A stretch of DNA of 20,344 bases, from IMG/VR virus record IMGVR_UViG_3300021375_000213, positions 1-20,344 of that record, one strand, 5' to 3'. This document shows positions 802-18,462 of this stretch, one piece after another. How positions within the stretch are numbered: position 1 is the first letter of the stretch; each line of letters begins with the position of its first letter. This stretch comes from a virus. The notes under the pieces were generated by a model that was not told where the DNA came from, ran no database searches, and saw only the letters and a program-made list of their open reading frames with translations. A program made the translations under genes and the position numbers.

Positions 802-1505
802 TTAAAAAACCACTCATTAATATTTTTTGCAAATAAGGCATGACTCATTAATCCTGGGTGAGGATTTGGTACGTCTAAAGCGTCATCTATATTAAAATCT
901 TTTTTCCAATTAAATGTTTTTATATTAAGGTTATCTAAATTAAATTTATTAAAGTAATCTTTATTATTTTTTAATTCATGTTCAGGGATTAGATGAAAAC
1001 TTTTTACCCCTTTATTTTTTAGGAATGCATGTATGTAATTTATACGTATCATTTGGTCAAATTTTGCATCAAACTCTTCATAAAAATCTTCATAATATAT
1101 CTTTACTTTTTGTTGTAATTCACTTTTTTCTCCGCCATGCCATATCCAAAACGATTTTGGTAACCTATCTGAGTCGTACATATGCGGAAGCATGTGTAGT
1201 CTTTCTTTTTTATTTTTGAAGAAAGTTGCTCTATTAAAGTTAGCCCATAGTATTACTACAATACTTTGTTTTGTAAATTTTGGATATTCTATAATTGCCT
1301 TTGCAATCATCTTATTACTAGATCCTGATTTAGCTTGATTGCTAACACTGTTAAACTGAACCTGTTGTTGTAATCTTGCAGGCCAAGCCCAATTACTAGG
1401 ACGTACACCCGGTGATTGCATATCTTCTGCAATACTATCAGGCAATCCATGTCCGTAAGTATGACTACATCCAAATGTAATTAGATTGTAATCTTTCCAG
1501 CCCAT
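798..1505 (-). CDS. SGNH/GDSL-type hydrolase or acyltransferase-like protein
   Basis: The 235-residue protein carries the blocks of the SGNH hydrolase fold: block I FGCSHTYGHG (residues 11-20, candidate nucleophile Ser14), a block II-like NQAKSGSSN (56-64, Gly61), a strand with Asn (ILWANFN, about 85-91) and a C-terminal DVPNPHPG (211-218) that could supply the Asp/His pair. Such enzymes hydrolyse or transfer acyl esters, and in polysaccharide clusters they often act in O-acetyl addition or removal. It has no signal peptide, so it probably acts in the infected cell's cytoplasm. A Shine-Dalgarno AAGGA lies about 7 bases before the ATG, inside the sulfotransferase gene, with which it overlaps by 25 bases. 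Substrate unknown. Confidence 0.75.
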   Translation of the reverse strand: MGWKDYNLITFGCSHTYGHGLPDSIAEDMQSPGVRPSNWAWPARLQQQVQFNSVSNQAKSGSSNKMIAKAIIEYPKFTKQSIVVILWANFNRATFFKNKKERLHMLPHMYDSDRLPKSFWIWHGGEKSELQQKVKIYYEDFYEEFDAKFDQMIRINYIHAFLKNKGVKSFHLIPEHELKNNKDYFNKFNLDNLNIKTFNWKKDFNIDDALDVPNPHPGLMSHALFAKNINEWFFK

Positions 1506-2161
1506 ATATTTTTCCTTGCACTTGTATCGAAATCAAAGTCCCAATGATCGATATCTTTCTTATACCATTTAGCAACCTTTTGCATTGTATTACTGTTATA
1601 TAAAGTCCTGTAATCTTCTTTAATACTTGTAACGTTTCTTGATCTTGGCATTTCTGTCATATTGAAGTATTTAAGTACATCTTCTTTAAGATGTTCTACA
1701 CGTAGTATGTCACAACGAACATTACCATCTAAATCTGTTACATGGTCTAACTGAGGATGCCAACCTCTTATAGCTCTATACCAAGTATACTTTTTATCAA
1801 ACCATTTATTACGTTCATGTAAAAAATGTTCAAGTGATCGTGTATCAGCGTAAGACGGATCTATGTTACCTCTTTGCACTGCTTCTTTTGCAAACAAATA
1901 TCTACTTACAACTTTACTCCATGGATTGCGTACAACAGCAAATGCTTGATGTTGATCTGTTATACTGCTACTTACATCTCTCCAACGTGCATGTTCAACT
2001 CCTTTAACATCACGTTCACCATATTGTTTCATAGCGTTGTTAAAGTCTTTAAAATTTGCAATCCATTTGCGTTGTACAGGAAGTATTTTATCTTGAAAAA
2101 CTTCACTGCCACGTATAGTCATGCCTGCATTTTTTGGTATGTGTATAAAAAGTTTTTGCAT
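1481..2161 (-). CDS. Sulfotransferase family protein
   Basis: The 226-residue protein has both PAPS-binding signatures of the sulfotransferase superfamily: a 5'-phosphosulfate loop, FIHIPKNAGMT (residues 5-15), and a 3'-phosphate-binding segment, VVRNPWSKVVSRY (76-88). The IPKNAG form is typical of the Golgi-type carbohydrate sulfotransferases and their bacterial relatives rather than of the cytosolic aryl enzymes. The expected reaction is transfer of sulfate from PAPS to a hydroxyl of a sugar. No PAPS-synthesis genes are visible here, so the donor would come from the host. The start overlaps the preceding stop by one base (TAATG). Together with the methyltransferase and SGNH protein it suggests chemical decoration of a glycan. 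The acceptor is unknown. Confidence 0.85.
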   Translation of the reverse strand: MQKLFIHIPKNAGMTIRGSEVFQDKILPVQRKWIANFKDFNNAMKQYGERDVKGVEHARWRDVSSSITDQHQAFAVVRNPWSKVVSRYLFAKEAVQRGNIDPSYADTRSLEHFLHERNKWFDKKYTWYRAIRGWHPQLDHVTDLDGNVRCDILRVEHLKEDVLKYFNMTEMPRSRNVTSIKEDYRTLYNSNTMQKVAKWYKKDIDHWDFDFDTSARKNIWAGKITI

Positions 2162-2538
2162 TAGTACTTTGTGTAATCCTTTTCTTCAATAATACCTGAC
2201 TTTGTAATTATGTTAATCATTTTTTTAATTTTTGCTCTCTGATCGTTTTTGATATAAACATTTCTAGCAAGTTCTATAAATTTACTACCAAAGTCTTTAT
2301 TAGACTCGCACTCGCGTTTGCTGTTTTCAATATCCCAAAGTTGTTCGTTAATTGACTCTAATTCTTCAACTAAAGCATTTACTTCTGGATCATTACTAAA
2401 TGCTTTATCTTCTAAATATTCTAATTCTTTATTAACGTTAGCAAGTTGGTCTTGGTCTGTTAGTTTGTTTTGCTTGATTCTAAGTATAGTAATCTTGTCA
2501 AATAATTCGCCAACAGATACTTCAATTGATACCATCAT
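2161..2538 (-). CDS. DUF6165-like coiled-coil protein of polysaccharide clusters
   Basis: This 125-residue protein begins with VSIEVSVGELFDKITIL, followed by a heptad-rich region that should be coiled coil (about residues 20-75: LANVNKELEYLEDK, then VEELESINEQLWDIE). The opening is the one I associate with DUF6165, a short family of unknown biochemical function found beside glycosyltransferase and sulfotransferase genes in bacteria. The name comes from memory of the signature, not from a search. It overlaps the upstream heptosyltransferase-like gene by 17 bases and the downstream sulfotransferase by one base. Two ATG codons stand in a row at the start; the first is used here. A structural or adaptor role in a glycan enzyme complex is possible but not shown. 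Confidence 0.7.
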   Translation of the reverse strand: MMVSIEVSVGELFDKITILRIKQNKLTDQDQLANVNKELEYLEDKAFSNDPEVNALVEELESINEQLWDIENSKRECESNKDFGSKFIELARNVYIKNDQRAKIKKMINIITKSGIIEEKDYTKY

Positions 2539-3280
2539 TTATTTTAATCCCGTTATCTTTGGCCCTATGCATGTGATGACTCCAGCGGTCCTTAGGGCTC
2601 AGTGTATATATGTGAATGTTCTCTGGAGCAAAGTAAACTTGTGACATATGTAAGAAGCCACTGTCAACGCCAACATGATACGTTGCCTTTGACATAGCAT
2701 ATGCAATGTGTTTTAAACTGTCTCTTAATAATACATCTTTTGATTCTCCACCTACTACAACTACTTCATAGTCTTTATACTTGTCTAGTATTGCTTGACG
2801 TTGCTTAGGTTTAATCATACGTTTTTTAGAAGTACTATCAAATTGTACTGTAATAAACTTTTTAGGAAGTTTAATATCTTGTGGCTCTGCATCTAATTGC
2901 GGAAAGTGTCTCAAGTATGCTGTAAGATCAATACCTTCTTTTGGCTCAAAGCGTTGCGGATAGTCAGCATATATTTGTGCATGTCCATCGTATGTGCGCC
3001 TTACATAGTTAACAAAGTCTACATTATCTTTTGGTTCAAAATCAAGGTGTGGCATTATTACAACACTTCCTTCAGGGAATAAACTTACTATCTCTGGCCA
3101 ACTTTCGGGCTTGTGTCTGTTCCACTGATACTTTGTAAGGTGTAGTGTTACAGGACTATTTTCCATTAGTCCATAATTGTATGATAGTAATACACTGTGT
3201 ATTCTGTCGCCTAATCCAGGTGCACCATAATGAAAGTTTTTCTTTACAGTACTATATGCTCTCATTACTAAATGTTTCAA
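2522..3280 (-). CDS. GT-B-type glycosyltransferase, heptosyltransferase (GT9)-like
   Basis: The 252-residue protein has a C-terminal half typical of GT-B nucleotide-sugar-binding domains: a strand FITVQFDSTS, a helix rich in basic residues, YEVVVVGGES, then AYAMSKATYHVGVDSGFLHM. The last is the heptosyltransferase-like segment in which a conserved GVDSG...H loop contacts the donor. The N-terminal PGLGDRIHSVL resembles the GxGD opening of GT9 proteins. The predicted start is TTG at 3280: it overlaps the preceding TGA, and an AGGTGA Shine-Dalgarno ends 4 bases before it, whereas the next ATG (3265) is too far from that site. At about 250 residues it is shorter than typical heptosyltransferases (roughly 320-350). 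The sugar transferred is unknown. Confidence 0.65.
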   Translation of the reverse strand: MKHLVMRAYSTVKKNFHYGAPGLGDRIHSVLLSYNYGLMENSPVTLHLTKYQWNRHKPESWPEIVSLFPEGSVVIMPHLDFEPKDNVDFVNYVRRTYDGHAQIYADYPQRFEPKEGIDLTAYLRHFPQLDAEPQDIKLPKKFITVQFDSTSKKRMIKPKQRQAILDKYKDYEVVVVGGESKDVLLRDSLKHIAYAMSKATYHVGVDSGFLHMSQVYFAPENIHIYTLSPKDRWSHHMHRAKDNGIKINDGIN

Positions 3281-4062
3281 TTTATCACCTGCATTAAATC
3301 TTCAACATTCTCACCCTTCTGTGGTAATAGATCTTTTAAGAAAAAATGTATAAAATATGCTTTAGGTATTTGTGCATCGTCAATACCTTTAAACAATCCG
3401 TTCCATCTCCAATCCATATTAAGTGTAGGAATTTTTTCTTTCTTTACCCAATAGTTAAGTAACATTTGATCAGTTGACCATTTGCGATATCCAATGCCGT
3501 CAACAAAGTCTTTGAACTCTGGTCTACGTATAAACTGTTCTGCTGTTTGTCCTTTTAAGTATGGTAAAAACTTTTGACAGTTAATAACCATCATTCCCAT
3601 ATTGTAAAACTCAGCACCTCTATGATCCCATTTCCAATCTACATCTGTAAGATTTTCAAATGCGGCTTTTGAATATTTTCTAATTTTGCTTTTATATTTT
3701 TTAGCACAAGGTAGTTCGCGTTCTGCTACAGCACCAAATGCATATTCATTTGTTAAGTCTTCAAATATGTTTTGTGCAGTTGGTCTAATATAGATATCAC
3801 TATCAATAATAGCAACTTGATCGTATTTGTGTAAATGTGTAAATGCGTTTTCTTTTTCGTATATAGGCATGTAACCAAGACGTTCAACTGCTTCTTTGCT
3901 ACGTCCTGTTACAGCCATGTCTGGTCTAATTTTTAAGATTGGTTCATTTTGTACAATATGTTCAATGCCGTATTTTGCACAGTATTGTCTTACACTTTCA
4001 ATACAATGCAAGTACAGTTTGCTTTGTGCGCCAACTGCTACTTGATAAATCATTCTCTTCAT
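3277..4062 (-). CDS. GT-A-type glycosyltransferase with DSD motif
   Basis: The 261-residue protein looks like a nucleotide-diphospho-sugar transferase of the GT-A (GT8-like) fold. A strand leads into AIIDSDIYI (residues 84-92), a DxD-type metal/nucleotide site. Further on come a YNMGMMVINC segment of the form seen in GT8 proteins, a STDQMLLNYW helix and LNMDWRWNG near the C-terminus. The start ATG overlaps the stop of the GT25-like gene by four bases (ATGA) and is preceded by AAAGGA with 6-base spacing, a good ribosome binding site. It should act in the cytoplasm on an activated sugar; donor and acceptor cannot be read from the sequence. The class is well supported, the specificity is not. 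Confidence 0.75.
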   Translation of the reverse strand: MKRMIYQVAVGAQSKLYLHCIESVRQYCAKYGIEHIVQNEPILKIRPDMAVTGRSKEAVERLGYMPIYEKENAFTHLHKYDQVAIIDSDIYIRPTAQNIFEDLTNEYAFGAVAERELPCAKKYKSKIRKYSKAAFENLTDVDWKWDHRGAEFYNMGMMVINCQKFLPYLKGQTAEQFIRRPEFKDFVDGIGYRKWSTDQMLLNYWVKKEKIPTLNMDWRWNGLFKGIDDAQIPKAYFIHFFLKDLLPQKGENVEDLMQVIN

Positions 4063-4622
4063 GATAAATCCTTTGTAAAACTTACGTCTGTTTTATATGT
4101 AACTTTATTATACTTATCGAAACGCATATCCACAATTCCATCACACAGCATCCAGTCTGCAGGCATTGCTCCGTTTGTATGTACCCAGTCAAGTATTTTC
4201 TTTGCTCCTGTAGGTGTTATACGATAAGCTCTAGCACCTTCATACCAGTTACCTGGAGGTATAGGTTTTGCTTTTTTAAATCCTTCAAACTTGTATATAT
4301 CGCAGTCTTCATATTCACCTATTGGCTTTTTAAAAACAACATCATGTTCAAATATACAAATTGGTGTGTTAGTTGTGTGGCATTTTTGCCACAGTAGGTA
4401 TTGGCTTAAAAAACAACCTTGTGTACCTGGACGAGCAAGCAAGCGTTGTGCTTTTTTGTGTGCGTATACGTTAATATTATAGTCGGCAAGTCCTTGCTTC
4501 ATACCGTTGACACCTTCATATAATTCTAAGTTCCAACCATGATTGGTTCCTGTTTCTAATGCACGACTAGCCATACTAACACTATTAGAATAACTTGGTA
4601 GATAGATTATGTATCCGATCAT
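4059..4622 (-). CDS. GT25-like LPS-type glycosyltransferase
   Basis: This 187-residue protein shows the pattern of the GT25 family (LPS and collagen-type galactosyl/glucosyltransferases). After an N-terminal strand, YIIYLPS, there is GTQGCFLSQYLLWQKC (residues 66-81), matching the family's GxxGCxxSH-like helix with Gln where His is common. EHDVVF (92-97) is the acidic metal site, and GARAYRITPTGAKKIL and PADWMLCDG correspond to the later conserved blocks. Its length is slightly below the usual 200-250. The start overlaps the preceding small gene by four bases (ATGA) and has AAGGA about 4 bases before it. It probably adds a hexose to a lipid- or protein-linked acceptor. Family call moderately secure, substrate unknown. 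Confidence 0.75.
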   Translation of the reverse strand: MIGYIIYLPSYSNSVSMASRALETGTNHGWNLELYEGVNGMKQGLADYNINVYAHKKAQRLLARPGTQGCFLSQYLLWQKCHTTNTPICIFEHDVVFKKPIGEYEDCDIYKFEGFKKAKPIPPGNWYEGARAYRITPTGAKKILDWVHTNGAMPADWMLCDGIVDMRFDKYNKVTYKTDVSFTKDLS

Positions 4623-4801
4623 TTGTCCTTCTCTAACTTGAAAGGCAGGTTCTTGCCTGACAGTTCCTCTGGGCTTACTTTGATGTTTTTCTTCATTTGG
4701 AATCCGTATCCCGCTTTACCTAGTTCGTGTATCTTAGGATCGAATTGGCTGTTCTGCTCGGCCTCTTTCTCCCGTTTGACTTGCCATTTTGATTTCTTCA
4801 T
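4619..4801 (-). CDS. Small basic hypothetical protein (60 aa)
   Basis: I do not recognise this protein. It is 60 residues, highly charged and lysine-rich (opening MKKSKWQVKREKEAEQ), with no hydrophobic segment. It is accepted as a gene because its ATG overlaps the upstream stop by four bases and its stop overlaps the downstream ATG by four bases, exactly the coupling seen through this operon; a GGAAA stretch lies just before the start. Its DNA looks noticeably less AT-rich than the flanking glycosyltransferase genes, hinting at a different origin. It could be a small RNA- or protein-binding factor; nothing in the sequence decides this. Confidence 0.65.
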   Translation of the reverse strand: MKKSKWQVKREKEAEQNSQFDPKIHELGKAGYGFQMKKNIKVSPEELSGKNLPFKLEKDK

Positions 4802-5652
4802 TTTCCTATTTCTACCTGTATTTCTTTCATCACTACTTTATACCAGTGATTTGGTAACCATTTTAATTGTGCTTGTTTAAACTTTAAACCTTCTTTTTTA
4901 TTACCTTTACCTGTACTAAAAACATTATTCTTTTTAATACCCCAACTATTCCAGTTGTATCCAATATGATTATAATCGTTACCCATATTCTTCCATTCAG
5001 CCATTACTTGTCGTAATACTACTTGGTCCACAAACCAATAACATCCGTTTTCAAATGCTGTAATCATTCTTCTAGCAAATAGGTTACGCCATTCAATACC
5101 TTTAGTATCTATGCCTGGACTTAATGCACTAGCAATAAAAATGTGTTGTTCTTTTGGTTTAGGCATAACACCAACAACATTAGTTACTTCTTCAAACTCA
5201 TGTCCGTGGAAGCCGTTACGCAATATACTATCGCAATCAATCTGTAATATTCTTTGATGTGGGTATGTAAATATTTCTGCCATGCGTATAAATCTTACAC
5301 TAGCCAAGTATGTACGTCTAGCAATATAATCTATATCACTAGTTTTAAAAATTTGCATTCCTTCGCCCATCATACTTTTGTTTTTAGGTAAGTCTTTATA
5401 AAATTGTTCGTTAGTATCTTCCCAAGTGTATGTAAACTTGTATCTACCCATTAGGTCTTTTAAGACACCGTGATCAATATTTCCTTCGTTAATTATATGA
5501 CAATGTACATGCACCCAGCCTACTGTTCTATTAATACTTTGCTGGAGTGCAAATCCATGTCGATCAAAGTAATCATAGTCGCAACTAAAATATATTATAT
5601 TTGCTTCTTCTCTAGGACACATATGTCCTCTTAATTCAGGAAGTTTAAACAT
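4798..5652 (-). CDS. GT-A-type glycosyltransferase with DCD motif
   Basis: The 284-residue protein resembles GT8-like transferases. An N-terminal strand, NIIYFSCDYDYF, is followed by a region about the right length for the nucleotide-binding fold, then RILQIDCDSIL (about residues 134-144), whose DCD is a DxD-type metal site. CYWFVDQVVLRQVM matches the later helix in which a DQ pair is common, and WGIKKNNVFSTGKGNKK is a basic loop near the C-terminus that may bind phosphate. A TTG just before the chosen ATG (5652) is also in frame; ATG is preferred because neither has a strong ribosome binding site. The gene overlaps the methyltransferase by eight bases. Donor and acceptor unknown. Confidence 0.7.
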   Translation of the reverse strand: MFKLPELRGHMCPREEANIIYFSCDYDYFDRHGFALQQSINRTVGWVHVHCHIINEGNIDHGVLKDLMGRYKFTYTWEDTNEQFYKDLPKNKSMMGEGMQIFKTSDIDYIARRTYLASVRFIRMAEIFTYPHQRILQIDCDSILRNGFHGHEFEEVTNVVGVMPKPKEQHIFIASALSPGIDTKGIEWRNLFARRMITAFENGCYWFVDQVVLRQVMAEWKNMGNDYNHIGYNWNSWGIKKNNVFSTGKGNKKEGLKFKQAQLKWLPNHWYKVVMKEIQVEIGK

Positions 5653-6322
5653 CAATTGCTATCCCTGGCCTATGTCCGATAATGGCATTCTTTTCTCCTC
5701 TACCAATTTTTCTAATCATTCTATATCCAAGTGGTGCAAGTATGTGTCTAATTGTGTCAGCGTTATGTCCGTAACGTATTGGATGATCTTTACATTCGTA
5801 AAGTATAATTGGTAAGCAACGTTTAATAGTTTCGAGCCCACCTTGTGCAACAAAAGGTTCATACCCTTCTGCATCAATTTTAATAAAATCAACATCTTGT
5901 AAATTATAAAAATCTAAAGGCATAACTTGTATGTCACCGCCGTCAACATCTGGAGCAACATGCGTACTAAAACTTTTATTTGTTGTTTTAATAGAAACAT
6001 TGTGTTTACGTTGTCCAAGTCCTACAGGATATGTTGTTACATTACCTACTGCTCGAGATTCTAAATTATAATTCATGCATTCATAAATCTTTGGATTAAT
6101 TTCGTATGCGTGTACATGTTCAAAACTCTTCGCCATTTGAAATGCTGTAATGCCTACATGTGCTCCAACATCAACTGCTGTACGCCATTTAGCACAGTAG
6201 CTCATTGCTGTCATTAATTCTATGTTTTGATAATTGTTAATATCGCCATTACCTTGCTTTTTTGCACTCTTTAAACAAATATCGTTTTTGAGTGAGCGCC
6301 AGCCATCTATCTCAGTATACAT
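5645..6322 (-). CDS. FkbM-family SAM-dependent methyltransferase
   Basis: The 225-residue protein carries the FkbM-type class I methyltransferase motifs. AVDVGAHVG (residues 49-57) is the SAM-binding glycine loop, AYEINP (72-77) supplies the acidic residue for the ribose, and VDFIKIDAEGYE (144-155) followed by GGLETIKRCLPIILYEC is the diagnostic FkbM block. The N-terminus (ICLKSAKKQG) is short and replaces the longer leader of some homologues. Members O-methylate sugars and polyketide hydroxyls, so here it probably methylates a sugar of the glycan made by neighbouring enzymes. The ATG overlaps the upstream stop by one base (TAATG), with GGAG 5 bases before it. Family call is strong; substrate is inferred from context. 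Confidence 0.9.
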   Translation of the reverse strand: MYTEIDGWRSLKNDICLKSAKKQGNGDINNYQNIELMTAMSYCAKWRTAVDVGAHVGITAFQMAKSFEHVHAYEINPKIYECMNYNLESRAVGNVTTYPVGLGQRKHNVSIKTTNKSFSTHVAPDVDGGDIQVMPLDFYNLQDVDFIKIDAEGYEPFVAQGGLETIKRCLPIILYECKDHPIRYGHNADTIRHILAPLGYRMIRKIGRGEKNAIIGHRPGIAIDV

Positions 6323-7098
6323 TATTGCTCCACTTGATACTTAAATGTTATATCCCAAGCAAGTCCATTTGCAAAGTCTTCACGTCGGAATTGGCTATGT
6401 GCAATATGTTCTAGCATCTCTGTTCTATCAAATCCAAATTTTCCTTGCCAATGTTGTACTGCACTTTGGCCTAGTACTTCAATAGGTTTTCCTAAACACA
6501 ATGCTTCAACTACTGCCATACTGTGATATGTAATTACTTTTTTTGCACTTAACATCATAGGTAAAATTTCTTGAAAGCGTTGTCTACGCTTGCCTTCTTT
6601 TTCTCTTATAATTAATTTCTCTGGAAGACTATCATAATGGCGAACTGTATCTGTACGCCACGTATTATAATCTTGTCCTAAGTATTTAAATATATTACTA
6701 TTGTTAGGCATCACTAAAAGGTTGTAATCGCCTTCTTTGTTCCATTCTTGCCATAAGTTGTCGTCTATTTCTAAATGTTCAATCCTGCTTTTATCTACAG
6801 GAGTACATACTTTAGTATTTTGTAATGAGTTATAACTAATACGATAGTACTCTGGAGTTTTATGTCTGTGATTGCCTATGTATCCGTTATCTAAATGGAA
6901 AAAGTTTATTCGTTTATCTCTTGATATTGCATCAAATACCCAATCGTCAAAAGGGTGACTAAATGCTAGATATCTATCTAATTCAATTTCTTCTGGGCGT
7001 TCAATGGTAATTGTATCGTAGTTTTTATATAAGTCTACAAAAAGTTGACCACGTAATTCTTTACTGCGTTTAGGTACTTGAAATTTATACGCTGGCAT
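6322..7098 (-). CDS. GT-B-like polysaccharide biosynthesis protein
   Basis: The roughly 258-residue protein has no single textbook motif, but its C-terminal third reads like the donor domain of GT-B glycosyltransferases or capsule biosynthesis proteins. KVITYHSMAVVEALCLGKPIEV presents the Ser/His plus EAL.LGKP pattern that grips the nucleotide sugar. Upstream are a LLVMPNNSN strand-loop and a LIIREKEGKRRQR basic segment. An in-frame TTG at 7113 would add five residues; ATG 7098 is preferred, with GGAAG immediately before it and no good site for TTG. The gene overlaps the end of uvsY by 14 bases, so the glycan cassette is joined directly to the recombination operon. Its sugar is unknown. Confidence 0.6.
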   Translation of the reverse strand: MPAYKFQVPKRSKELRGQLFVDLYKNYDTITIERPEEIELDRYLAFSHPFDDWVFDAISRDKRINFFHLDNGYIGNHRHKTPEYYRISYNSLQNTKVCTPVDKSRIEHLEIDDNLWQEWNKEGDYNLLVMPNNSNIFKYLGQDYNTWRTDTVRHYDSLPEKLIIREKEGKRRQRFQEILPMMLSAKKVITYHSMAVVEALCLGKPIEVLGQSAVQHWQGKFGFDRTEMLEHIAHSQFRREDFANGLAWDITFKYQVEQ

Positions 7099-7540
7099 CT
7101 TCCATACCCGCAACTCTCAGTTTGACAACGTTTGTTATCTGCCACTGTTTCTGATCAAGACCTTTTAATAAGCCTAGCCATTTGTTACGAAGTAATGCAA
7201 ACTCATTAATAATCTTTTCATAGTCGACTACGTCTGCTTCGCCGTCAACATATTTCTCAACATCTCTGCTAGACAAAGCACGTTGATAATTTTCAAGATA
7301 TTTTTTAAAATATGAACTACGCAGTCTACGTAGTTCAATATTTAGATAATTTAGTATAGCTTCAATCTCTTGTAACTGATTAAAACGGTGTTCAACGATG
7401 CCGGGCATCTCTGCCGCGGCACGTTCAACGTTGCCTTTTAGTTTTACTTCACTTCGGGCATCAATAAGTTCATCTTCAAAAAACTTAATTGCTGTGGGGA
7501 TTTTATTGATATCTCTAGCTACTTCAGAGTAATATCCCAT
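7085..7540 (-). CDS. uvsY: UvsY-like recombination mediator protein
   Basis: The 151-residue protein matches the layout of T4 UvsY (137 residues): a helical body followed by a C-terminal LLKGLDQKQWQITNVVKLRVAG helix that parallels the T4 ALDAIKSRGFAIKHIQDMR segment. A YQRALSSRDVEKYVDG stretch corresponds to the ALSADKDVLKV part of T4. UvsY loads the UvsX recombinase onto gp32-covered single-stranded DNA. Two genes upstream lies uvsX, and gp32 precedes that, so all three partners are together. The ATG directly follows the stop of the small acidic protein (TAAATG), with GGAAG inside that gene as ribosome binding site. The N-terminal half (MGYYSEVARDINKIPTAIKF) differs from T4, as expected for a distant relative. 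Confidence 0.88.
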   Translation of the reverse strand: MGYYSEVARDINKIPTAIKFFEDELIDARSEVKLKGNVERAAAEMPGIVEHRFNQLQEIEAILNYLNIELRRLRSSYFKKYLENYQRALSSRDVEKYVDGEADVVDYEKIINEFALLRNKWLGLLKGLDQKQWQITNVVKLRVAGMEDASV

Positions 7541-10050: not shown

Positions 10051-12267
10051 TTATCTTAGTCCTGCTAGGGATTGGATACGTGCCATTTCAGCATCTTTCA
10101 AGCGTAATAAATCTGCCATTACTGCTTGAGCTTCATCAACCATCTCATCACCGTACTGTTTTTGTACTGCTGTTAAGACTGCTGTTTCACCTTTAGGGAA
10201 AGCATTACTAGTATAATCGTACATACCTTTAATGAATTCATCTAATGGAATTTCGTTCTTTTGCTTCAATTCGTCACCGTTTCCTTTTGGACTAATGTCG
10301 ATTGTTGTAGCATCTTTATCATCTTCTTTTGCTCTTTCGTCGTCTCCGAACATCATTTTATATACTTTATATCCACCCAATAATAGTGCAACTACTACTG
10401 CCGCTGGTATAGCATATTGTTTTGCAATACCTGCAACTTTGTTTAGATCTGGAATATTATCTAGTGCGCCTGCCGCCATTGATTTAAGTTCATCTGCTGT
10501 GTTGGCTACTTTGTCGCCAACTGATTTAATAGTACTTTGAGCTGTGTCAATAGCATCGTTAGCTTTACCAACAAGTTCTGCTCCACCTTTTACTGTGTTA
10601 ACTGCTCCTTTTGCTACGTCTACTGTTGCACTTGGATTAGCCGCCGCTGTTGCACCAACAGTTGCTTTGACTGGATTCTTTGCTGACCAACTTAAAATCT
10701 TGCCTGAACCCTTCATTACATTTGGTAAAACTTTAGGGCCAAGCATTCTTAGTGCCGCACCTGCCGCTGGTACTAGTAATCCTAGTAACGGTAATGCTTC
10801 TTGTAATTGTTGATCTTCTGCTGTTAACTCATCTGTACGTTTGCCTAAAATCTTTTCGGCGTTTAGTTTGCTCATTTTAGTTTTATATTTTTTCCCTGCA
10901 AACATAAATTCTTTTTCGCCTTTTGATGCCGCATCAGCCGCACACTGAGAAAACTTTTCCCACATAGCTTGTTGCTCTTCTGCAGTCATCATTTGCTTTT
11001 CTTTTGGTCCTTGTTCATGTTTTGACTGTGCAATAATAGCATCCATCTTTTCAGCATATGCTGTTTGAGGATCGATAACTTCATTAGGTGATCCCATATC
11101 GTCATTTGTATCTTGAAATCCTTTTTGTGCTAGAAAGTTTTGAATTACTTTTGCTGGATTACCATCAGCCTTTACCATTTCTTTTCCAAATGTTGCTTTG
11201 TCCATTTTTAGAACTTGGGCTAGATAATCTGCTCCATGAGTTTTAAACATACCAAGATACTTGTTCCCCACAGTACCTAATTGTATTGCATCATCTTCGG
11301 CTAGTTTTTCTAAATCTACTTCTTCTACTTTGTTTGCTTCTTTTACTAAGTTGTATACATATGGAAATACACCTTTTAGTTCTTCGTTAAACTGTCTAAT
11401 AGTAAGTTCGTCAATCCAAGTATTTGAAACATCTTCTGGAACTTCTTCAAGCACGGTAGTTTCGAAGTTTGCAAATGTTTCTGTATAATATGCTTTGCGT
11501 TGTAGAGACTCAACTGTCTTTTTAACAGTAGCAAGTCTTTCGTTTACAACGTCCATGTATCCTGCTAAACCTTCAGCCATTACACTTGAGCGATTCATGT
11601 ATGTCTTAAATTTACGCAGTTTGTTTAATTCTTCTGATAGCCCAACAATATGCTTACCAAAGTCGTCGTATGCATTTCCACCTTCACTTACGTGCATAGC
11701 CATTGCTCTTGCACCGTTCATGTGTCGTAGTGGATATTTAAATCTTTCGCCGTTTGCACTTTCAATATAAATGCTGTGTACATTTTGTGTGCGTCCTGCG
11801 GCATTTTCGTGGTTTACTGGGCCAGCATGTTTTACAACTAATCTTGCTGTTCCGATATCTTGGTAACTAGTTCTACTAGTTCCATACATCTTTGATTCGC
11901 TCATTTGTTTCTCCGTGCTTAGATATTCGTAATCTCTTTTATCTAAATTTGATTTTGTTATGTCTCGTGTATCAAAATTTAACATTCTCTTTTTTGCAAA
12001 TACTCTTAATTCTTTTAAAAGATCAAACCATTTGCTTTTAAGTACATGTTCATCTTCTGAAAATAGGTCCTGACCATACATTACTGTGAGTGCATTTTCG
12101 TCAATACTTACACTAACTTTCTTACCGCTTGCAAAGTCAAATTCAAAAAATCTAGCTTCTTTTGGTTTGTTAGTTATTTCAGCAGATTCGTTTCCTACTG
12201 TAATGCTAGGAAAGCGTCCACGTATCTTATTAAATAATTCGTCTGCAATAGTCTCAAGGTTTTTCAT
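10051..12267 (-). CDS. Large virion-associated protein with membrane segment, unknown
   Basis: I do not recognise a named T4 counterpart for this 738-residue protein. The N-terminal 250 residues look globular, with a conserved-looking stretch around TARLVVKHAG and ERFKYPLRHMNGA. The middle is helical and charged, and a hydrophobic segment, LPLLGLLVPAAGAAL, starts near residue 492. A helical Ala-rich repeat-like region follows, then a clear transmembrane stretch, YAIPAAVVVALLLGGYKVY (about 618-636), and a charged C-terminus. This plan suits an internal or ejected virion protein that meets the host membrane. An in-frame TTG at 12282 would add five residues but lies in the terL stop region and upstream of the promoter-like motif, so ATG 12267 is used. 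It follows terL and precedes the gp32 promoter. Confidence 0.8.
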   Translation of the reverse strand: MKNLETIADELFNKIRGRFPSITVGNESAEITNKPKEARFFEFDFASGKKVSVSIDENALTVMYGQDLFSEDEHVLKSKWFDLLKELRVFAKKRMLNFDTRDITKSNLDKRDYEYLSTEKQMSESKMYGTSRTSYQDIGTARLVVKHAGPVNHENAAGRTQNVHSIYIESANGERFKYPLRHMNGARAMAMHVSEGGNAYDDFGKHIVGLSEELNKLRKFKTYMNRSSVMAEGLAGYMDVVNERLATVKKTVESLQRKAYYTETFANFETTVLEEVPEDVSNTWIDELTIRQFNEELKGVFPYVYNLVKEANKVEEVDLEKLAEDDAIQLGTVGNKYLGMFKTHGADYLAQVLKMDKATFGKEMVKADGNPAKVIQNFLAQKGFQDTNDDMGSPNEVIDPQTAYAEKMDAIIAQSKHEQGPKEKQMMTAEEQQAMWEKFSQCAADAASKGEKEFMFAGKKYKTKMSKLNAEKILGKRTDELTAEDQQLQEALPLLGLLVPAAGAALRMLGPKVLPNVMKGSGKILSWSAKNPVKATVGATAAANPSATVDVAKGAVNTVKGGAELVGKANDAIDTAQSTIKSVGDKVANTADELKSMAAGALDNIPDLNKVAGIAKQYAIPAAVVVALLLGGYKVYKMMFGDDERAKEDDKDATTIDISPKGNGDELKQKNEIPLDEFIKGMYDYTSNAFPKGETAVLTAVQKQYGDEMVDEAQAVMADLLRLKDAEMARIQSLAGLR

Positions 12268-12272
12268 ATTAA

Positions 12273-12280
12273 TATTTATC
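12273..12280 (-). promoter_or_regulatory. Late-promoter motif GATAAATA before the 738-aa gene
   Basis: The octamer GATAAATA (minus strand) overlaps the terL stop codon TGA and ends five bases before the ATG of the 738-aa gene. It is close to the T4 late promoter core TATAAATA. With T4 geometry, transcription would start at or within the ATG, giving a nearly leaderless message; no Shine-Dalgarno sequence is seen in the short gap. Confidence 0.6.
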
Positions 12281-13859
12281 AATAACCGCTAACAAATATA
12301 GGCATCGGCGGTTCGTATGATTCTTCTCCTTCTGCTTGTGTAAACGTATTATATATACGTGGATCCCAGTCTTTCATTACAGCCATCATTCTTAATGCAA
12401 GTAATGTAGCACTAACCAAGTCATCATTAGCTCCCGGTTTTGCTCTAAAACTAGTACCTGTAGCAACATAATTCTTTAGTTCAGTAATTAATGGGCCACT
12501 GTTAATAGTTATCTTATTATTTTCAACCATAGTCTTTAGTCGACTACATGCTGTAATCTTAGTACCATGTGTAGTATTAAATCCTTTACGAAACTTACGT
12601 ACATGTCCTTTACGCATTGGTTCACTTACAAATAGTCCGGGTATATTTTCTTCGCCAAAGTCATTTATAACAATCAATGCCGCTTCTCCGATACTATTGT
12701 TTTCTACACTCCAATAAATGTTAGATCCAGTTCCTTTACAACTATCTTGTATGTGTGTACAAATATCTCTTAATATTCTAATCTGTGCTGGTATAGGTGT
12801 TTCGTTGTGTCGCCATTCTGCTACTTGTGTATAACTTGGAAGTTCATATACTTGTATTGCGGCATAATCGCCTCCAGTACCCATTGCTGGATCGAGTGCT
12901 ACTGCATAATTTTGATCTCCTGTTGGTTTTCCGTACCAACGTGTTTGCCCCATGTTCATTAATGGATCTTTTGCTTCCATAGTTGATAAATGAATACTAT
13001 TAATAAGTGTTTCATCGTATACTAAGAATTCGCAACCGTACTCTCGTCTAAATTTTTCTTCGCCAATACGTCCAATTTCTTCAATCTTCCATTGTTCGTC
13101 TCTGTCAGGATGTTCGTCCCAACCACATGTAAATCCGTGAAAACCGTTTATGCCGACTTCTTGTTCGTTACCATGTGCATCGTATTTCTCTTGTGATTGT
13201 TTCCAAATAACAGCAAACGTATCTTCGTCTGAGTTAGGTGTACTTGTAATAATAGCACGACCACCTGTTGCTAGTGTAGGTGATATTGATGTCCAAAATT
13301 CTTCTGCAATATTAGGATTAACAAATGCAAACTCGTCACAGTATAATAATGATATACTCATACCACGTCCTGTGTTGCCTGTTGTAGTAGCACTAACAAT
13401 TCTACTTCCGTTTTCAAACTCCATTGAGCCTTTGTTATAGTTTGTAACACCCGCTCTAATATGGTCTGGACATGATTCATACACATAACGTATACGTTGC
13501 ATAATCTCTTGTGCGCCTGTATACTTGTGTGCGGCAATTAGTACAGTTTGATCTGGATGAAACATTGCATACCATGCTAGATATATTGCGGCAGTAGTAG
13601 TTTTACCAGTCTGCCTTGGTAGCATGTTTACATTAAATCTATGATTGTGATAACTTTCAAGAAGTCGTGATTGGTATGTGAAAGGATCAAACAATAATTT
13701 GCCTTTTACAGGATGTTGGATGTATGCAAACTTACGTGCGAAATGGTCGTAACCAGTTTTAGGATCCATGCATTTAGCAAGGTCCTCAATCTGTGTATCA
13801 GTATATGTTTCTGTTTTATTGGCTTTCTTAATTAAGACGCCGTCTAAAGAAGTACTCAT
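12279..13859 (-). CDS. 17: Large terminase subunit (gp17-type packaging ATPase/nuclease)
   Basis: The 526-residue protein is the DNA-packaging motor and headful nuclease. ATPase domain: Walker A PRQTGKTT (81-88), Walker B LLYCDEFAF (171-179, Asp175 and catalytic Glu176), coupling motif STPN (206-209). Nuclease domain: ALDPAMGTGGDY (321-332, Asp323), VENNSIG (385-391, Glu386) and GANDDLV (476-482, Asp479/480), the three acidic sites of the RNase H-like fold. T4 gp17 is 610 residues, so this is somewhat shorter. A longer frame opens at ATG 13889, but that codon lies inside a terminator hairpin, so ATG 13859 is chosen. It partners with gp16, which is several genes upstream rather than adjacent as in T4. 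Confidence 0.97.
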   Translation of the reverse strand: MSTSLDGVLIKKANKTETYTDTQIEDLAKCMDPKTGYDHFARKFAYIQHPVKGKLLFDPFTYQSRLLESYHNHRFNVNMLPRQTGKTTTAAIYLAWYAMFHPDQTVLIAAHKYTGAQEIMQRIRYVYESCPDHIRAGVTNYNKGSMEFENGSRIVSATTTGNTGRGMSISLLYCDEFAFVNPNIAEEFWTSISPTLATGGRAIITSTPNSDEDTFAVIWKQSQEKYDAHGNEQEVGINGFHGFTCGWDEHPDRDEQWKIEEIGRIGEEKFRREYGCEFLVYDETLINSIHLSTMEAKDPLMNMGQTRWYGKPTGDQNYAVALDPAMGTGGDYAAIQVYELPSYTQVAEWRHNETPIPAQIRILRDICTHIQDSCKGTGSNIYWSVENNSIGEAALIVINDFGEENIPGLFVSEPMRKGHVRKFRKGFNTTHGTKITACSRLKTMVENNKITINSGPLITELKNYVATGTSFRAKPGANDDLVSATLLALRMMAVMKDWDPRIYNTFTQAEGEESYEPPMPIFVSGY

Positions 13860-13864
13860 ACTAC

Positions 13865-13872
13865 TATTTAAC
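13865..13872 (-). promoter_or_regulatory. Variant late-promoter motif GTTAAATA before terL
   Basis: GTTAAATA differs by one base from GATAAATA and ends five bases before the terL ATG. The same spacing is seen before the 738-aa gene and the gp19-like gene, and the base pattern between motif and ATG is similar. It lies right after the terminator that ends the upstream operon, where a new promoter for terL is expected. Confidence 0.5.
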
Positions 13873-13873
13873 C

Positions 13874-13898
13874 AAAAAAATAGGCCCATCGGGCCTAT
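13874..13898 (-). terminator. Intrinsic terminator upstream of terL
   Basis: On the minus strand ATAGGCCC (13898-13891), loop GAT, and GGGCCTAT (13887-13880) form a perfect 8-bp GC-rich stem. It is followed directly by a run of seven U residues (13880-13874). It stands 17 bases after the stop of the 118-aa gene and before the ATG of terL, and would end the gp16-to-118-aa transcript. Confidence 0.92.
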
Positions 13899-13915: not shown

Positions 13916-14272
13916 TTAAACTATACCGTCGCCGGTAAGTGCATTACCTGCTATACCGCCAAGTATTCCACCGCCGATTGCACCCACTGGTCCTAACGGT
14001 GCACCTAATGTTGATCCAATATATGATCCTGCCGCGCCGCCTAGAAATCCTGCATTTAAGTCTTGATCACCTTCAACGTCATCTTTGCCTGGAATTTTTG
14101 GATCGTCCATCTTTGCTGTTTGTACAATACTAGGACTTAGTCCTGCGTTAGTCATCATTTGCATTAGTTCAGCAACTTCGTTTGGAGTTTCTGCATTCAT
14201 ACTAATGTTAACGCTTGCTTGCTCGTTAACTGGTGAGCTAATATTATCTAACTTTTCCAGTAAATCACGCAT
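13916..14272 (-). CDS. Small Gly-rich protein, paralogue of the 234-aa protein
   Basis: No named family is recognised. The 118-residue protein has three parts: a helical N-terminus with NISMNAETPNEVAELMQMMT (about 22-41), an acidic DDPKIPGKDDVEGDQDLNAG motif (56-75), and a Gly/Ala-rich, weakly hydrophobic C-terminus full of GxxxG steps (GGAAGSYIGSTLGAPLG and GGGILGGIAGNAL). The same three blocks occur in the 234-aa protein two genes upstream, so the two are paralogues. Glycine-zipper tails often insert in or span membranes, which would suit a protein carried in the head and ejected with DNA; this is inference. Its ATG overlaps the stop of the 128-aa gene (TAATG), and a strong terminator follows it. 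Confidence 0.85.
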   Translation of the reverse strand: MRDLLEKLDNISSPVNEQASVNISMNAETPNEVAELMQMMTNAGLSPSIVQTAKMDDPKIPGKDDVEGDQDLNAGFLGGAAGSYIGSTLGAPLGPVGAIGGGILGGIAGNALTGDGIV

Positions 14273-14658
14273 TACGTTGCTACTAATGTTGCCGCAAGAG
14301 TTACTAGTGTACCACTAGTGTCAATATTGTTTGGGCCAACTGCTGTAACTGTGCTAGTTGGATAGTTTGACGCTTTTCCGATTAGTCTAATACGTGCTTG
14401 TAAGTCTGCCGCTGTTGCACTGTTATCACATACTACAGTCATTGTACCACTTGCATCGTTAGTTGTATGATAAACCAAAGGATTAATTTCTTTACAAATT
14501 TGCTCAACTGTTTCATCTAATGCATCGTCTTCTGCTCTTAGATCAACTGCTGTACCGTTTGCAATTTTTACTAAAATTTTAAAAGCAAATGCTCCTGGGT
14601 AATGAACATCACCTGCCGCCGATTTTCCTGATCCGTTTACTCTAGTTTGTCCAGCCAT
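14272..14658 (-). CDS. 128-aa hypothetical, probable virion protein
   Basis: I cannot assign this protein to a family. It is 128 residues, starts MAGQTRVNGSGKSAAG, and has alternating hydrophobic patterns and many Thr, Ser, Val and Gly. A beta-rich fold is therefore likely, with one short helix (ALDETVEQICKEINPLVY). The C-terminus (DTSGTLVTLAATLVAT) is hydrophobic and Thr-rich. Such composition is common in head decoration and other small structural proteins of tailed phages, and its place between two probable virion proteins supports that role. Its start lies four bases after the 234-aa gene stop, with AAGGGG as ribosome binding site within that gene's end, and its stop overlaps the next ATG. 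Decoration is only one possibility. Confidence 0.8.
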   Translation of the reverse strand: MAGQTRVNGSGKSAAGDVHYPGAFAFKILVKIANGTAVDLRAEDDALDETVEQICKEINPLVYHTTNDASGTMTVVCDNSATAADLQARIRLIGKASNYPTSTVTAVGPNNIDTSGTLVTLAATLVAT

Positions 14659-14662
14659 TTAA

Positions 14663-15367
14663 TTACCCCTTGTACTCTGAATATAATGAAGAAAGTTCTT
14701 CTTTAATCTTACTTGCTAGTGCCATTGGATTATCACCGCCTGCTACTTTTGGATAAGATTTTTTAGATTTATTAAGATCATTTCCGCCTTTAATTACATC
14801 AGTGTGTGGTGCATACTCTTCTTCTGGACTATTTTCGTAGTCTTCTCCAGTGATCTTATCACCAATTGTTCCGCCTACCATTGCGCCTGCTACTTTTGGT
14901 GCTACACTTTTTACTATTGGTTTAACAATAGCACTTGATCCTGGTACTACTAAATCAGCAACTGCTCCTGCACCTTGTGCCGCTAAGTCTGATCCTACAC
15001 CGCCTGTCATCTTGTCTATGTTGTCACCTGCTTGTGCTCCTAATCCACCACCAATAAGTGTTCCACCTACTCCTGCTTTAAGATCCATGTCTCCGTCGAC
15101 ATCATCTCTACCTGGAATCTCTGGATCATCGTCCATTGCTCCAAGTGCTTTGATATGCTTTTCCATATCCATTCTTGGTGCTAATGGCTTATCACTAACT
15201 TTTTCTGGTGACATACCTGCGTTACGCATCATTGCCATAAGTTGTCCAACTTGTCCGGCATCGTCTGCTGTCATTGAAATATTCATTGACGCTGATTCTT
15301 TTAATTCTTGTTTTTTGCTAGGAGCTTCAATAGCGTCCATTTTTGCAATCATATCTTTAAGGTTCAT
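14663..15367 (-). CDS. 234-aa Gly-rich protein, paralogue of the 118-aa protein
   Basis: This 234-residue protein shares its plan with the 118-aa protein downstream: MNISMTADDAGQVGQLMAMM near residue 28, the acidic DDPEIPGRDDVDGDMDLKAG block (about 78-97), then a Gly-rich run (GGTLIGGGLGAQAG). Unlike the shorter copy it continues with more small-residue hydrophobic segments (GAVADLVVPGSSAIVKPIV, VAGAMVGGTIG) and a polar tail with an ALASKIKEELSSLYSEYKG helix. Membrane-active or internal virion roles fit such glycine-zipper content, but no T4 homologue is apparent to me. The ATG overlaps the preceding stop by one base (TAATG), and GGGAG is a suitable ribosome binding site. Confidence 0.85.
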   Translation of the reverse strand: MNLKDMIAKMDAIEAPSKKQELKESASMNISMTADDAGQVGQLMAMMRNAGMSPEKVSDKPLAPRMDMEKHIKALGAMDDDPEIPGRDDVDGDMDLKAGVGGTLIGGGLGAQAGDNIDKMTGGVGSDLAAQGAGAVADLVVPGSSAIVKPIVKSVAPKVAGAMVGGTIGDKITGEDYENSPEEEYAPHTDVIKGGNDLNKSKKSYPKVAGGDNPMALASKIKEELSSLYSEYKG

Positions 15368-15921
15368 TATTTGCTCCCTACTGGTGATACAGTATTTTCT
15401 TTGTCGGTGATATCTGCGCCTTCACCGGGTTTAACGTCTTGTAACGGATCATTTTCACGCTCTGATCTAGCAGTTTCAAGTTCTTTTAATAAAGACATAA
15501 CACGATTTGAACCAACAGCTTCTTGTGCTGATTCGCCTCCCATGTCTTCTGTTTCTAATCTAGTTTCGTATGGCCCTTCATCTTTTGTTGCTTGATACAT
15601 TTCTTGTGGTTCGTTTACGTTACGCACTATAAGATGAGCTCTATCAATATCACAACACTGTGTAATATATTCTCCTAACACCTGAGGTGTTGTAGGATAA
15701 TTTAAACCAACTTCGTAATATGTAACTTCACAGTTACTAAGTTGTGGAAAGTCCAGTGGACGTTCTTGAATTGGAGTTTTCTTTCCAGCACTCATTGATG
15801 CTACACTGTAGCGTTGCAAGCATCTTTCTAAACTATCAGCACAATCCTCTGGAAGTTCACCTGCTACTCCAATGTTAAATTCATATATTTTTTTAGCTTC
15901 TGCTAGGTATTTTTCAAACAT
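15367..15921 (-). CDS. 184-aa conserved-looking hypothetical
   Basis: No function can be given. The 184-residue protein has an N-terminal domain of about 110 residues with a strand YEFNIGVAGEL, a helix DCADSLERCLQRYSV, a KKTPIQERPLDFPQL segment, VTYYEVGLNYPTT, and QVLGEYITQCC. This alternation of strands and helices looks like a small ferredoxin-like alpha/beta domain. The C-terminal 70 residues are polar, acidic and probably disordered. It is the first gene behind a GATAAATA motif overlapping the gp16 stop, with AAGGA ahead of its ATG, and is coupled to the 234-aa gene. A head-related role is likely only from location between the two terminase subunits. Confidence 0.8.
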   Translation of the reverse strand: MFEKYLAEAKKIYEFNIGVAGELPEDCADSLERCLQRYSVASMSAGKKTPIQERPLDFPQLSNCEVTYYEVGLNYPTTPQVLGEYITQCCDIDRAHLIVRNVNEPQEMYQATKDEGPYETRLETEDMGGESAQEAVGSNRVMSLLKELETARSERENDPLQDVKPGEGADITDKENTVSPVGSK

Positions 15922-15939: not shown

Positions 15940-16425
15940 TTATTTATCCATATTCTTAAGTTTTTCGAGCAAACTATTACGGTCTGTTACTATATAACCT
16001 TCGCCTTGAACCATATCTTCGTCTGGCTTACCGTCTTTGTCCATCTTTTCTTTCTTGAGTTGTAGCTCTACCATCTTAAGTTTTTTGTCTAATTTTGCAA
16101 CTTTAGCATCAAGTGATGTTTTTAACATTCCGCCTGCTACTTCAAATACTCTACCTGAGTATCTTGATTCAACGTTCATACCCAAATCCATTAGATCATC
16201 ATATGCATCCATAGCTTTTTGAGCAACTTCGTTAAGCTCTGTATCAGCCATTTCACCTAATCCCTTAACTGCGGGTAGTGCGGCCGATATTTTATCAAAC
16301 TCAGCAATGTCTCTCAAGGTTTCATTCTGTTGAGCTAATACTTCTTTTCTGTCTTTTTTCTGATCTTGTTTGATAATTTCTTTACTATCAGGTAAGTCGA
16401 GAAGTTCTTCTAATTTCTTTGTCAT
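15940..16425 (-). CDS. 16: Small terminase subunit (gp16-type)
   Basis: The 161-residue protein matches T4 gp16 (164 residues) in length and in its central helical pair. VESRYSGRVFEVAGGMLKTS (84-103) followed by a lysine-rich coiled coil (KVAKLDKKLKMVELQLKK) parallels the T4 segment [22 protein letters not shown]. gp16 forms rings, recognises concatemer DNA and stimulates the gp17 ATPase. The N-terminal third is polar and charged, as in relatives. In T4 it sits directly before gp17; here four other genes lie between. A GATAAATA motif overlaps the stop of the upstream gp4 gene and ends 26 bases before this ATG. Another overlaps its own stop. Confidence 0.85.
   Translation of the reverse strand: MTKKLEELLDLPDSKEIIKQDQKKDRKEVLAQQNETLRDIAEFDKISAALPAVKGLGEMADTELNEVAQKAMDAYDDLMDLGMNVESRYSGRVFEVAGGMLKTSLDAKVAKLDKKLKMVELQLKKEKMDKDGKPDEDMVQGEGYIVTDRNSLLEKLKNMDK
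15941..15948 (-). promoter_or_regulatory. Late-promoter motif GATAAATA before the 184-aa gene
   Basis: GATAAATA on the minus strand overlaps the gp16 stop codon and ends 19 bases before the ATG of the 184-aa gene, whose own AAGGA lies in that gap. The position suggests a late promoter that starts the 184-, 234-, 128- and 118-aa gene group. Confidence 0.55.
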
Positions 16426-17271: not shown

Positions 17272-18462
17272 TTATATTACCCCGTCCATTGGTGGCTCGT
17301 TTGGTCCACTAAAGCTGTTTGCTGATGCTGAACTTGTCTTTGATGTTTGACCGCCGTATTTGCTAATCAAAGCACCTACACCAACTACTGCCGCCGCTGT
17401 TGCCGCTGTTGACGCACTACCACCTCCAGCACCTTTTGGAAAAGCTACACCTGCAACACCACTTACATCAATTCCGGCTTTTTTACCAATATCTCCAATT
17501 GCACTACCTATTAGTTCTTGTCCTACGCCAGCGGCATTTAATCCGCCTGCATTTTGTAATACGTTTGCCGCTTTTAATACTGTACCAAAGTTTGCTGTAC
17601 CACCAGTAATATCACTCAAAACTCCATATCCGCCTGCTAACACTCCGCCTATTCCTAATAGACTAGATGCTCCGCCGCCAGATAATGAGTTTGGACTAGG
17701 AGTTTTATCATAATGTTCTTCGGCAAATCCTTTAGGTCCGCCTTTGCCTATTGCACCTCTGCTGTAATGAACAGTTTCATATTCTAATGTCATTGTGTTT
17801 GCTACAACATCACTGGCGCTGTTGTCCATTGTATCGTGTTGCCAATTTGAAATTATAGGATTTATAAGCGTAAATGAAGTATAATTTTTACGTGCCATTT
17901 GACTAATAGTAATACTGTTAAAAAACGGAGATGAAGAATCGTTATCAAAGCCGTATCTGAATTGCTTTCTGCCAAACATACTTTGTCTATTGTAAGGATC
18001 AAATGATTCGCCACCTGTGTCTGGTGATCCATCTGGTGTTGTTGCGGCATAATTACCATCTCTATAATAGTATCTATAATATGCTTCCCACAGTGCTGTA
18101 GTAACACCCATATTATCATCATGTAATGTAATTTGAATTGGTTGATAATCGATACGTTTTTGTACTATTTTTTTTCTGTTGTATTGATGTTTAACATCTG
18201 TTTGGATATTATATGCAGGTAACTGTGCAGTCTTAACAAGCATATTAAGTTCATTCAAATGCTTTTCTCTTAATTGAGGAATAACTGCGGCCGCATCAGG
18301 ATTAATATTAAAACTGACATGATAAAGAAATTTTACTTTTGGACTTAGTCGATGACTGTCATCAACATAAAGTCTTGAACCGTGTGCATAGTCGCCCAGG
18401 GTTCCTTTTGGGTTTAAAGCACCCGATACTACATTGTCTAAAAATCCGTTTAAAAAGCTCAT
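17272..18462 (-). CDS. gp19-like tail tube/baseplate junction protein with Gly-rich tail
   Basis: The 396-residue protein has an N-terminal domain of about 235 residues that looks like the tail-tube fold. It contains a FLYHVSFNIN strand, LVKTAQLPAYNIQTDVKHQY, IDYQPIQITLHDDN and a W..YYRYYYRD helix, then NSITISQMARKNYTSFTLINP and MTLEYETVHY. That order of strands matches gp19-type tube proteins and the related T4 gp54, which initiates the tube on the baseplate. Residues about 265-396 are rich in Gly, Ala and Ser, a tail not present in gp19. It is the first gene behind a terminator and a late-promoter motif. gp54 is a possibility; a minor tube or virion protein is equally open. Confidence 0.65.
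   Translation of the reverse strand: MSFLNGFLDNVVSGALNPKGTLGDYAHGSRLYVDDSHRLSPKVKFLYHVSFNINPDAAAVIPQLREKHLNELNMLVKTAQLPAYNIQTDVKHQYNRKKIVQKRIDYQPIQITLHDDNMGVTTALWEAYYRYYYRDGNYAATTPDGSPDTGGESFDPYNRQSMFGRKQFRYGFDNDSSSPFFNSITISQMARKNYTSFTLINPIISNWQHDTMDNSASDVVANTMTLEYETVHYSRGAIGKGGPKGFAEEHYDKTPSPNSLSGGGASSLLGIGGVLAGGYGVLSDITGGTANFGTVLKAANVLQNAGGLNAAGVGQELIGSAIGDIGKKAGIDVSGVAGVAFPKGAGGGSASTAATAAAVVGVGALISKYGGQTSKTSSASANSFSGPNEPPMDGVI

Follow-up and report, generated by a model that had tools for sequence, protein, structure and literature searches.

Candidate inner-head proteins encoded between the terminase genes of a T4-related marine giant phage

The window analysed here, the whole 20,344-nucleotide stretch of the viral record IMGVR_UViG_3300021375_000213 (IMG/VR), carries on its minus strand genes in the following order: sheath, tube, a second tube-like protein (396 aa), a 125-aa protein, a gp4-like protein, TerS, p184, p234, p128, p118, TerL, g743, and two genes which, by position and similarity, we take to be those of SSB and UvsX. 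The nearest relatives of its TerL belong to giant T4-related phages (PA5oct-like phages, 54.6%; Phosso, 48.5%). An earlier note on this DNA had described a 118-aa and a 234-aa gene with a 128-aa gene between them and the two terminase genes on either side, and these reading frames are all found on the minus strand where it placed them (Table 1). Its remark that T4 has nothing of the kind between gp16 and gp17 is likewise borne out, as the two T4 genes overlap (96194-96688 / 96672). Elsewhere in the window, the second tube-like protein (17272-18462) has a long Gly/Ala-rich C-terminal extension (19-residue Kyte-Doolittle mean, KD19, 1.54) and occupies the position of the second tube protein of PA5oct, and positions 115-7113 hold a block of sugar/glycan-type genes: Glyco_transf_25, Glyco_transf_8-like, FkbM methyltransferase, and unassigned neighbours.

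Table 1. Genes and protein features of the locus, in window coordinates (↓ marks a predicted cut).
Feature	Position	Strand	Basis or remark
TerS (gp16-like)	15940..16425	-	PHROG small terminase 2.7e-5; 161 aa
TerL (gp17-like)	12279..13889	-	Pfam Terminase_6N 2e-17, 6C 2e-10
p184 (184 aa), also between the terminase subunits	15367..15921	-	Constant upstream neighbour of p234; leader MFEKYLAE↓A; homolog of PA5oct gp282
p234 (234 aa), candidate core inner-head protein of the phage group	14663..15367	-	ORF list, slot survey
p128 (128 aa), scattered insertion gene	14272..14658	-	ORF list, slot survey
p118 (118 aa), paralog of the p234 N-terminal part	13916..14272	-	Leader, NISM helix, acidic IPG motif, Gly-zipper tail
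g743 (743 aa), homolog of a virion protein (PA5oct gp278)	10051..12282	-	C-terminal LAGLR motif; best membrane-helix candidate of the neighbourhood
p234 predicted propeptide MNLKDMIAKMDAIEAPSKKQELKE↓	15296..15367	-	Inferred site L-K-E↓S-A-S
p118 predicted propeptide MRDLLEKLDNISSPVNE↓	14222..14272	-	Inferred site V-N-E↓Q-A-S
p118 VNISM...LMQMMTNAGLSP segment	14132..14212	-	p118/p234 alignment
p118 acidic motif DDPKIPGKDDVEGDQDL	14057..14107	-	p118/p234 alignment
p118 Gly-zipper tail	13937..14050	-	9 GxxxG in protein; maximum KD19 1.38
p234 MNISM...LMAMMRNAGMSP segment	15206..15286	-	Ortholog comparison
p234 acidic motif DDPEIPGRDDVDGDMDL	15080..15130	-	Ortholog comparison
p234 Gly/Ala-rich middle	14849..15076	-	Replaced or missing in other orthologs
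p234 conserved C-terminal block (GNDLNKSKKSYPKVAGGDNPMA...)	14666..14800	-	Ortholog comparison

Searches of viral metagenome contigs with p234 and TerS yielded 129 loci in which TerS and TerL are both present; 91 of these differ in the slot sequence between the two. p184 and p234 fill the slot in 90 of these 91 non-redundant loci, a count that for p234 partly reflects selection, the loci having been found via p234 or TerS; among the loci fetched via TerS alone, p234 is present wherever the slot is complete. Only the isolate PA5oct departs from this, pairing a p184 homolog with a 498-aa protein (gp281). The other two genes are less frequent (p118 in 18 and p128 in 22 of the 91 slots) and require on a TerS+p184 tree at least 5 and at least 11 changes, respectively. 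p184 and p234 are the core genes of the slot, and p128 is a scattered insertion. In tblastn searches of isolate phages no match was obtained for p234 or p128, and p118, p128 and p234 are all without a usable match in Pfam and PHROGs. A processing site is found in 0% of the p128 clusters; its AlphaFold model (pLDDT 70) has no PDB match at E 0.001, the only matches being uncharacterised models from uncultured phages.

Several loci carry further insertions or rearrangements. Radical SAM, 2OG-Fe(II) oxygenase-like, and DUF6445 genes are inserted between p234 and TerL (L137 9389-10561, L124 9330-10094, and L155 8742-9308), a site which looks like an insertion hot spot. One p118-TerL interval (L176 5626-9546) encodes a phosphoribosyltransferase, an NMT1/THI5-like binding protein, an ABC ATPase, a permease, and an arylsulfotransferase, and is either an auxiliary metabolic cassette or a chimeric contig. 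In two loci (L056 4591-7161, and L057) the TerL reading frame reaches 857 aa and contains a LAGLIDADG domain preceding the terminase match, a probable intein or homing insertion; in two others (L034 4790-5574 and L045 3779-4460) a frameshift or an assembly error divides p234 between two frames.

The earlier note took p118 and p234 for paralogs, which is true: they share 40% identity across 96 aa (BLASTP E 7e-19), and the profile-profile comparison (hhalign, E 2e-31 across 114 columns) means that the likeness is not due to chance. The NISM segment and the acidic motif that it described are present in both, the latter as DDPKIPGKDDVEGDQDL in p118 and DDPEIPGRDDVDGDMDL in p234. Its Gly-rich GxxxG tail stands in part: both proteins contain a GxxxG region (9 GxxxG in p118, 5 in p234), which is a tail in p118 only, while in p234 it is internal (about residues 98-173) and followed by the conserved C-terminal block ending GGDNPMALASKIKEELSSLYSEYKG. 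In a tree of the N-terminal parts all p118 sequences fall on one side of one branch (support 100/99), and a single p118 duplication is therefore favored. In addition, p118 lies directly after p234, without p128 between, in 12 of the 18 loci, so that p128 was inserted or lost. Both observations support the old tandem duplication proposed in the note, and its view of the duplicates as now separated by the 128-aa gene is a fair one. The sequences thus point to p118 as a single-origin, lineage-limited duplicate of the p234 N-terminal part, with later losses or transfers. The acidic motif and the Gly stretch occur twice within one p234 in a 262-kb relative and in locus L205. A possible further paralog is a 96-aa reading frame on the contig of L046 (G001 53812-54099), weakly p118-like (HMM E 6e-4) and containing IRKMAGVNPAVV...DDDP.

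The T4 capsid-targeting sequence (CTS) is a known address tag for the packaging of proteins into the phage head. In the T4 internal proteins it comprises 10 residues, of which 4 and 7 are important for targeting and 8 and 10 for processing, and the T4 prohead protease cleaves after L/I-x-E (PMC9026906). T4 ipII and ipIII start with MKTYQEFIAE↓A, and T4 gp23 has FLTE↓A. Homologs of p184 start with MKTFKQFLTE↓S, MKKFTEFLTE↓S or MKSFTEFLTE↓S, and the p184 of the window with MFEKYLAE↓A. Aligned from the cut, the p184 leaders have the length of those of T4 ipII/ipIII and show F/Y at position 4, a hydrophobic residue (often F/Y) at 7, an aliphatic one at 8, and E at 10; in 88 of the 91 loci the predicted cut site lies in the first 20 residues and the leader fits the T4 CTS pattern. 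The window p234, which starts MNLKDMIAKMDAIEAPSKKQELKE↓SASMNISM, has a leader longer than the T4 CTS and without residue-by-residue similarity to it. The leaders of its orthologs end in ELKE, KLDE, KLEE, ELTE, PINE, KINE, VVNE, PLGE or QLNE. The p234 and p118 leaders end in a putative [LIV]-x-E↓ site, a pattern like that of the major capsid proteins (MCPs) of the same phages, which in six contigs of the group carry L-x-E↓[T/N/S]-A-T near residue 41. The V-N-E↓Q of the window p118 is not an ideal T4 site.

A short cleavage motif, [LIVM]xE[ASGTN] in residues 7-45, was counted over 80% clusters and compared with shuffled sequences. It occurs in 41 of 44 clusters of p184 (11.0 shuffled) and in 49 of 57 of p234 (13.7 shuffled); for p118, with few clusters, there is no excess (3 of 6, against 2.2). 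As controls (90% clustering), TerL, gp4, g743, and p128 match in 2, 5, 2, and 0% of clusters, respectively, TerS in 39%, and the sheath in 100%, the conserved match of this unrelated protein being due to chance. Since TerS and the sheath match as well, the short motif alone proves nothing, and it was rejected as sole evidence. A better sign of processing is a fixed L/I/V and E with a variable middle letter at the junction between leader and conserved domain. A stricter pattern, [LIV]xE↓[STANQG]A[ST] within the first 120 residues, is found in 2 of the 325 ORFs of the 262-kb relative (MCP and p234), near the chance expectation of 1.3 from shuffling. In PA5oct it is found in four ORFs (MCP, gp281, gp247, and gp223), all four marked as detected by ESI-MS/MS; this mark is carried by about 93 of the 445 PA5oct CDS (counted by hand), and four out of four would arise by chance with a probability of about 0.002. 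A T4-CTS-like expression run over the whole proteomes of the 262-kb relative and PA5oct gave few matches, near chance, and the CTS assignment is accordingly drawn from the p184 family alignment and not from genome-wide enrichment.

Virion data come from PA5oct (Arenbergviridae), a distant isolate without recognisable p234. Its gp282, homologous to p184 (1.6e-26) and located between TerS and TerL, is a virion protein by ESI-MS/MS. gp281, in the slot position of p234, was also detected in virions by ESI-MS/MS and resembles p234 in its MCP-like post-cleavage segment and its GDN...KFKG end. However, it is 498 aa long and shows no significant homology to p234 in HMM and hhalign comparisons; it was dropped as a homolog and serves here as a counterpart by position only. 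PA5oct also differs in having neither p118 nor a Gly zipper. The homolog of g743, gp278 (2.6e-64), is a virion protein by mass spectrometry, and TerS and TerL of PA5oct bear no ESI-MS/MS note. The earlier suggestion of head proteins is thus supported by the targeting and processing signals and by the slot proteins found in PA5oct virions.

A separate observation concerns the C-termini of g743 and the scaffold. Most of the 47 complete g743 homologs end in R[IM]xxLAG[LIV]R, the C-terminus of the scaffold (gp22-like) protein being LRRLAGLK (LAG-type C-termini: window 10051-12282; contig of L046, G001, 104955-107519 and 171731-172828; PA5oct 84724-85827). No other of the 325 ORFs in the 262-kb relative has a C-terminus of this type, for which 0 were expected; the two proteins may have in common a tag that binds the core or shell. 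A more general LAG-type helix motif was no commoner in the 262-kb relative than in shuffled proteins, and a search with a 37-aa copy returned no isolate. We therefore draw no conclusion from this motif.

The middle of p234 is the variable part of the protein. A zipper was scored by a fixed rule, ≥4 GxxxG and ≤3 charged residues per stretch of 40; this gives 14 of the 57 p234 clusters, each of which also has the acidic IPG motif, itself present in about 40% of the clusters. The p234 of the window fails this rule. A Pfam scan of 27 p234 orthologs identified PG_binding_1 in six, LysM in one, and weak matches to Gly-zipper models (Gly-zipper_Omp/YMGG, best 1e-4) in a few, for which reason an envelope-directed role is possible. 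No p234 cluster combines a zipper with a peptidoglycan-binding domain, and neither PG_binding_1 nor LysM was found by Pfam in the proteins of the window. A LysM domain lies at the C-terminus of a p234 ortholog (L054 5992-7194), and one slot contains a separate 443-aa PG_binding_1 protein (L055 4638-5966). The KD19 cutoff of 1.6 for transmembrane segments is reached by 0 of 18 p118 and 0 of 91 p234 proteins, and in about half of the g743 homologs. The AlphaFold model of p118 (pLDDT 47.8) was too poor for use or for a fold search.

From these data, p184, p234, and p118 probably belong to the inner head of this T4-related marine giant phage, being targeted to the core and processed by the prohead protease. 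As capsid-targeting sequences, their N-termini would direct them into the prohead scaffold core, where a gp21-like protease would cut after [L/I/V]-x-E and remove the leaders; the mature proteins would then remain beside the DNA inside the head. p234 consists of a constant part, the NISM helix and the C-terminal block (plus the acidic motif where present), and of a swappable middle: a Gly zipper, a peptidoglycan-binding domain, LysM, or nothing. p118 derives from a one-time duplication of the N-terminal part that kept only the zipper version. Ejection and envelope contact are hypothetical: should the proteins exit together with the DNA, their modules would have the host envelope as target.

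Other readings of the slot have to be weighed. The earlier note saw in the glycine-zipper tails a sign of membrane insertion, and p118 and p234 might accordingly be ejected from the head and become inserted, as a pore or channel, in the membrane of the host. The dense GxxxG of p118, the weak Pfam matches, the helical hairpin modelled at low confidence for p118, and the peptidoglycan-binding domains of sister proteins, which suggest an envelope role, agree with this reading; yet by the fixed rule 43 of the 57 p234 clusters lack a zipper, and all 109 p118 and p234 proteins stay under the usual membrane hydropathy cutoff. Membrane insertion is thus one possibility for the minority form and weak as a function of the family; as an account of these proteins it seems unlikely, the pore being a hypothesis. 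An equally improbable reading makes p234 and p118 consumable acidic core proteins of the prohead, comparable to T4 gp67/gp68, which would shape the head, be cut by the protease, and be mostly lost. Acidic low-complexity stretches and the multiple [LIV]xE sites of several leaders would fit such a fate, against which stand the separate scaffold and acidic core-type gene that the 262-kb relative already has beside its protease and MCP genes, the detection of gp281 in virions, and the peptidoglycan-binding and LysM domains, which make little sense in a discarded protein.

Very unlikely in our judgement is that p184, p234, and p118 are packaging accessory factors which bind terminase or portal and for this reason lie between TerS and TerL. 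The nearly invariant position and the acidic motif conserved in part of the family speak for it. The position may simply mirror the late-gene linkage of head functions. The N-termini are of the targeting and processing type, PA5oct has its slot proteins in finished virions with no such record for its terminase subunits, and variable middles with peptidoglycan-binding domains are unfit for a motor factor.

The inner-head reading can be compared with known systems. The T4 proteins IPI, IPII, and IPIII are CTS-tagged, processed by gp21, and ejected; p184 matches the ipII/ipIII leader in length and key residues, the p234 and p118 leaders have a putative [LIV]-x-E↓ ending, and the contents behind the leader vary widely in both cases. 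No sequence homology to the T4 proteins was found behind the leader, and the present genes differ from them in their fixed, nearly universal TerS-TerL location and in the constant p234 framework with its exchangeable module. In phiKZ and SPN3US, head-interior proteins of giant phages are cut by the prohead protease after x-x-E and include paralogs with identical N-termini (PMC5694885). Those ejection proteins are unrelated to p184, p234, and p118 and differ in motif (A/S-x-E) and in their long propeptides, mostly >100 aa (PMC5694885). With bacterial glycine-zipper proteins (Pfam Gly-zipper_Omp, YMGG) some members share GxxxG repeats in mid-protein (E about 1e-4), but hydropathy here is under the membrane cutoff, most orthologs lack the repeat, and the leader is of phage head type and not of a secretion context.

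A rather unlikely extension of the inner-head reading would be that a constant capsid-targeted carrier is encoded between the terminase genes, whose interchangeable middle reaches the host envelope from inside the head as the DNA enters, p118 being a dedicated membrane version. If true, contractile-tailed giant phages, thought to need only their tail, would possess a modular ejected apparatus. A T4-type tag on a near-universal gene pair of an uncultured marine giant-phage group would provide a sequence-based criterion by which head cargo could be predicted in metagenomes, and p234, with its repeatedly swapped middle, is a candidate natural carrier. It thereby becomes testable whether contractile-tailed giant phages eject envelope-binding proteins.
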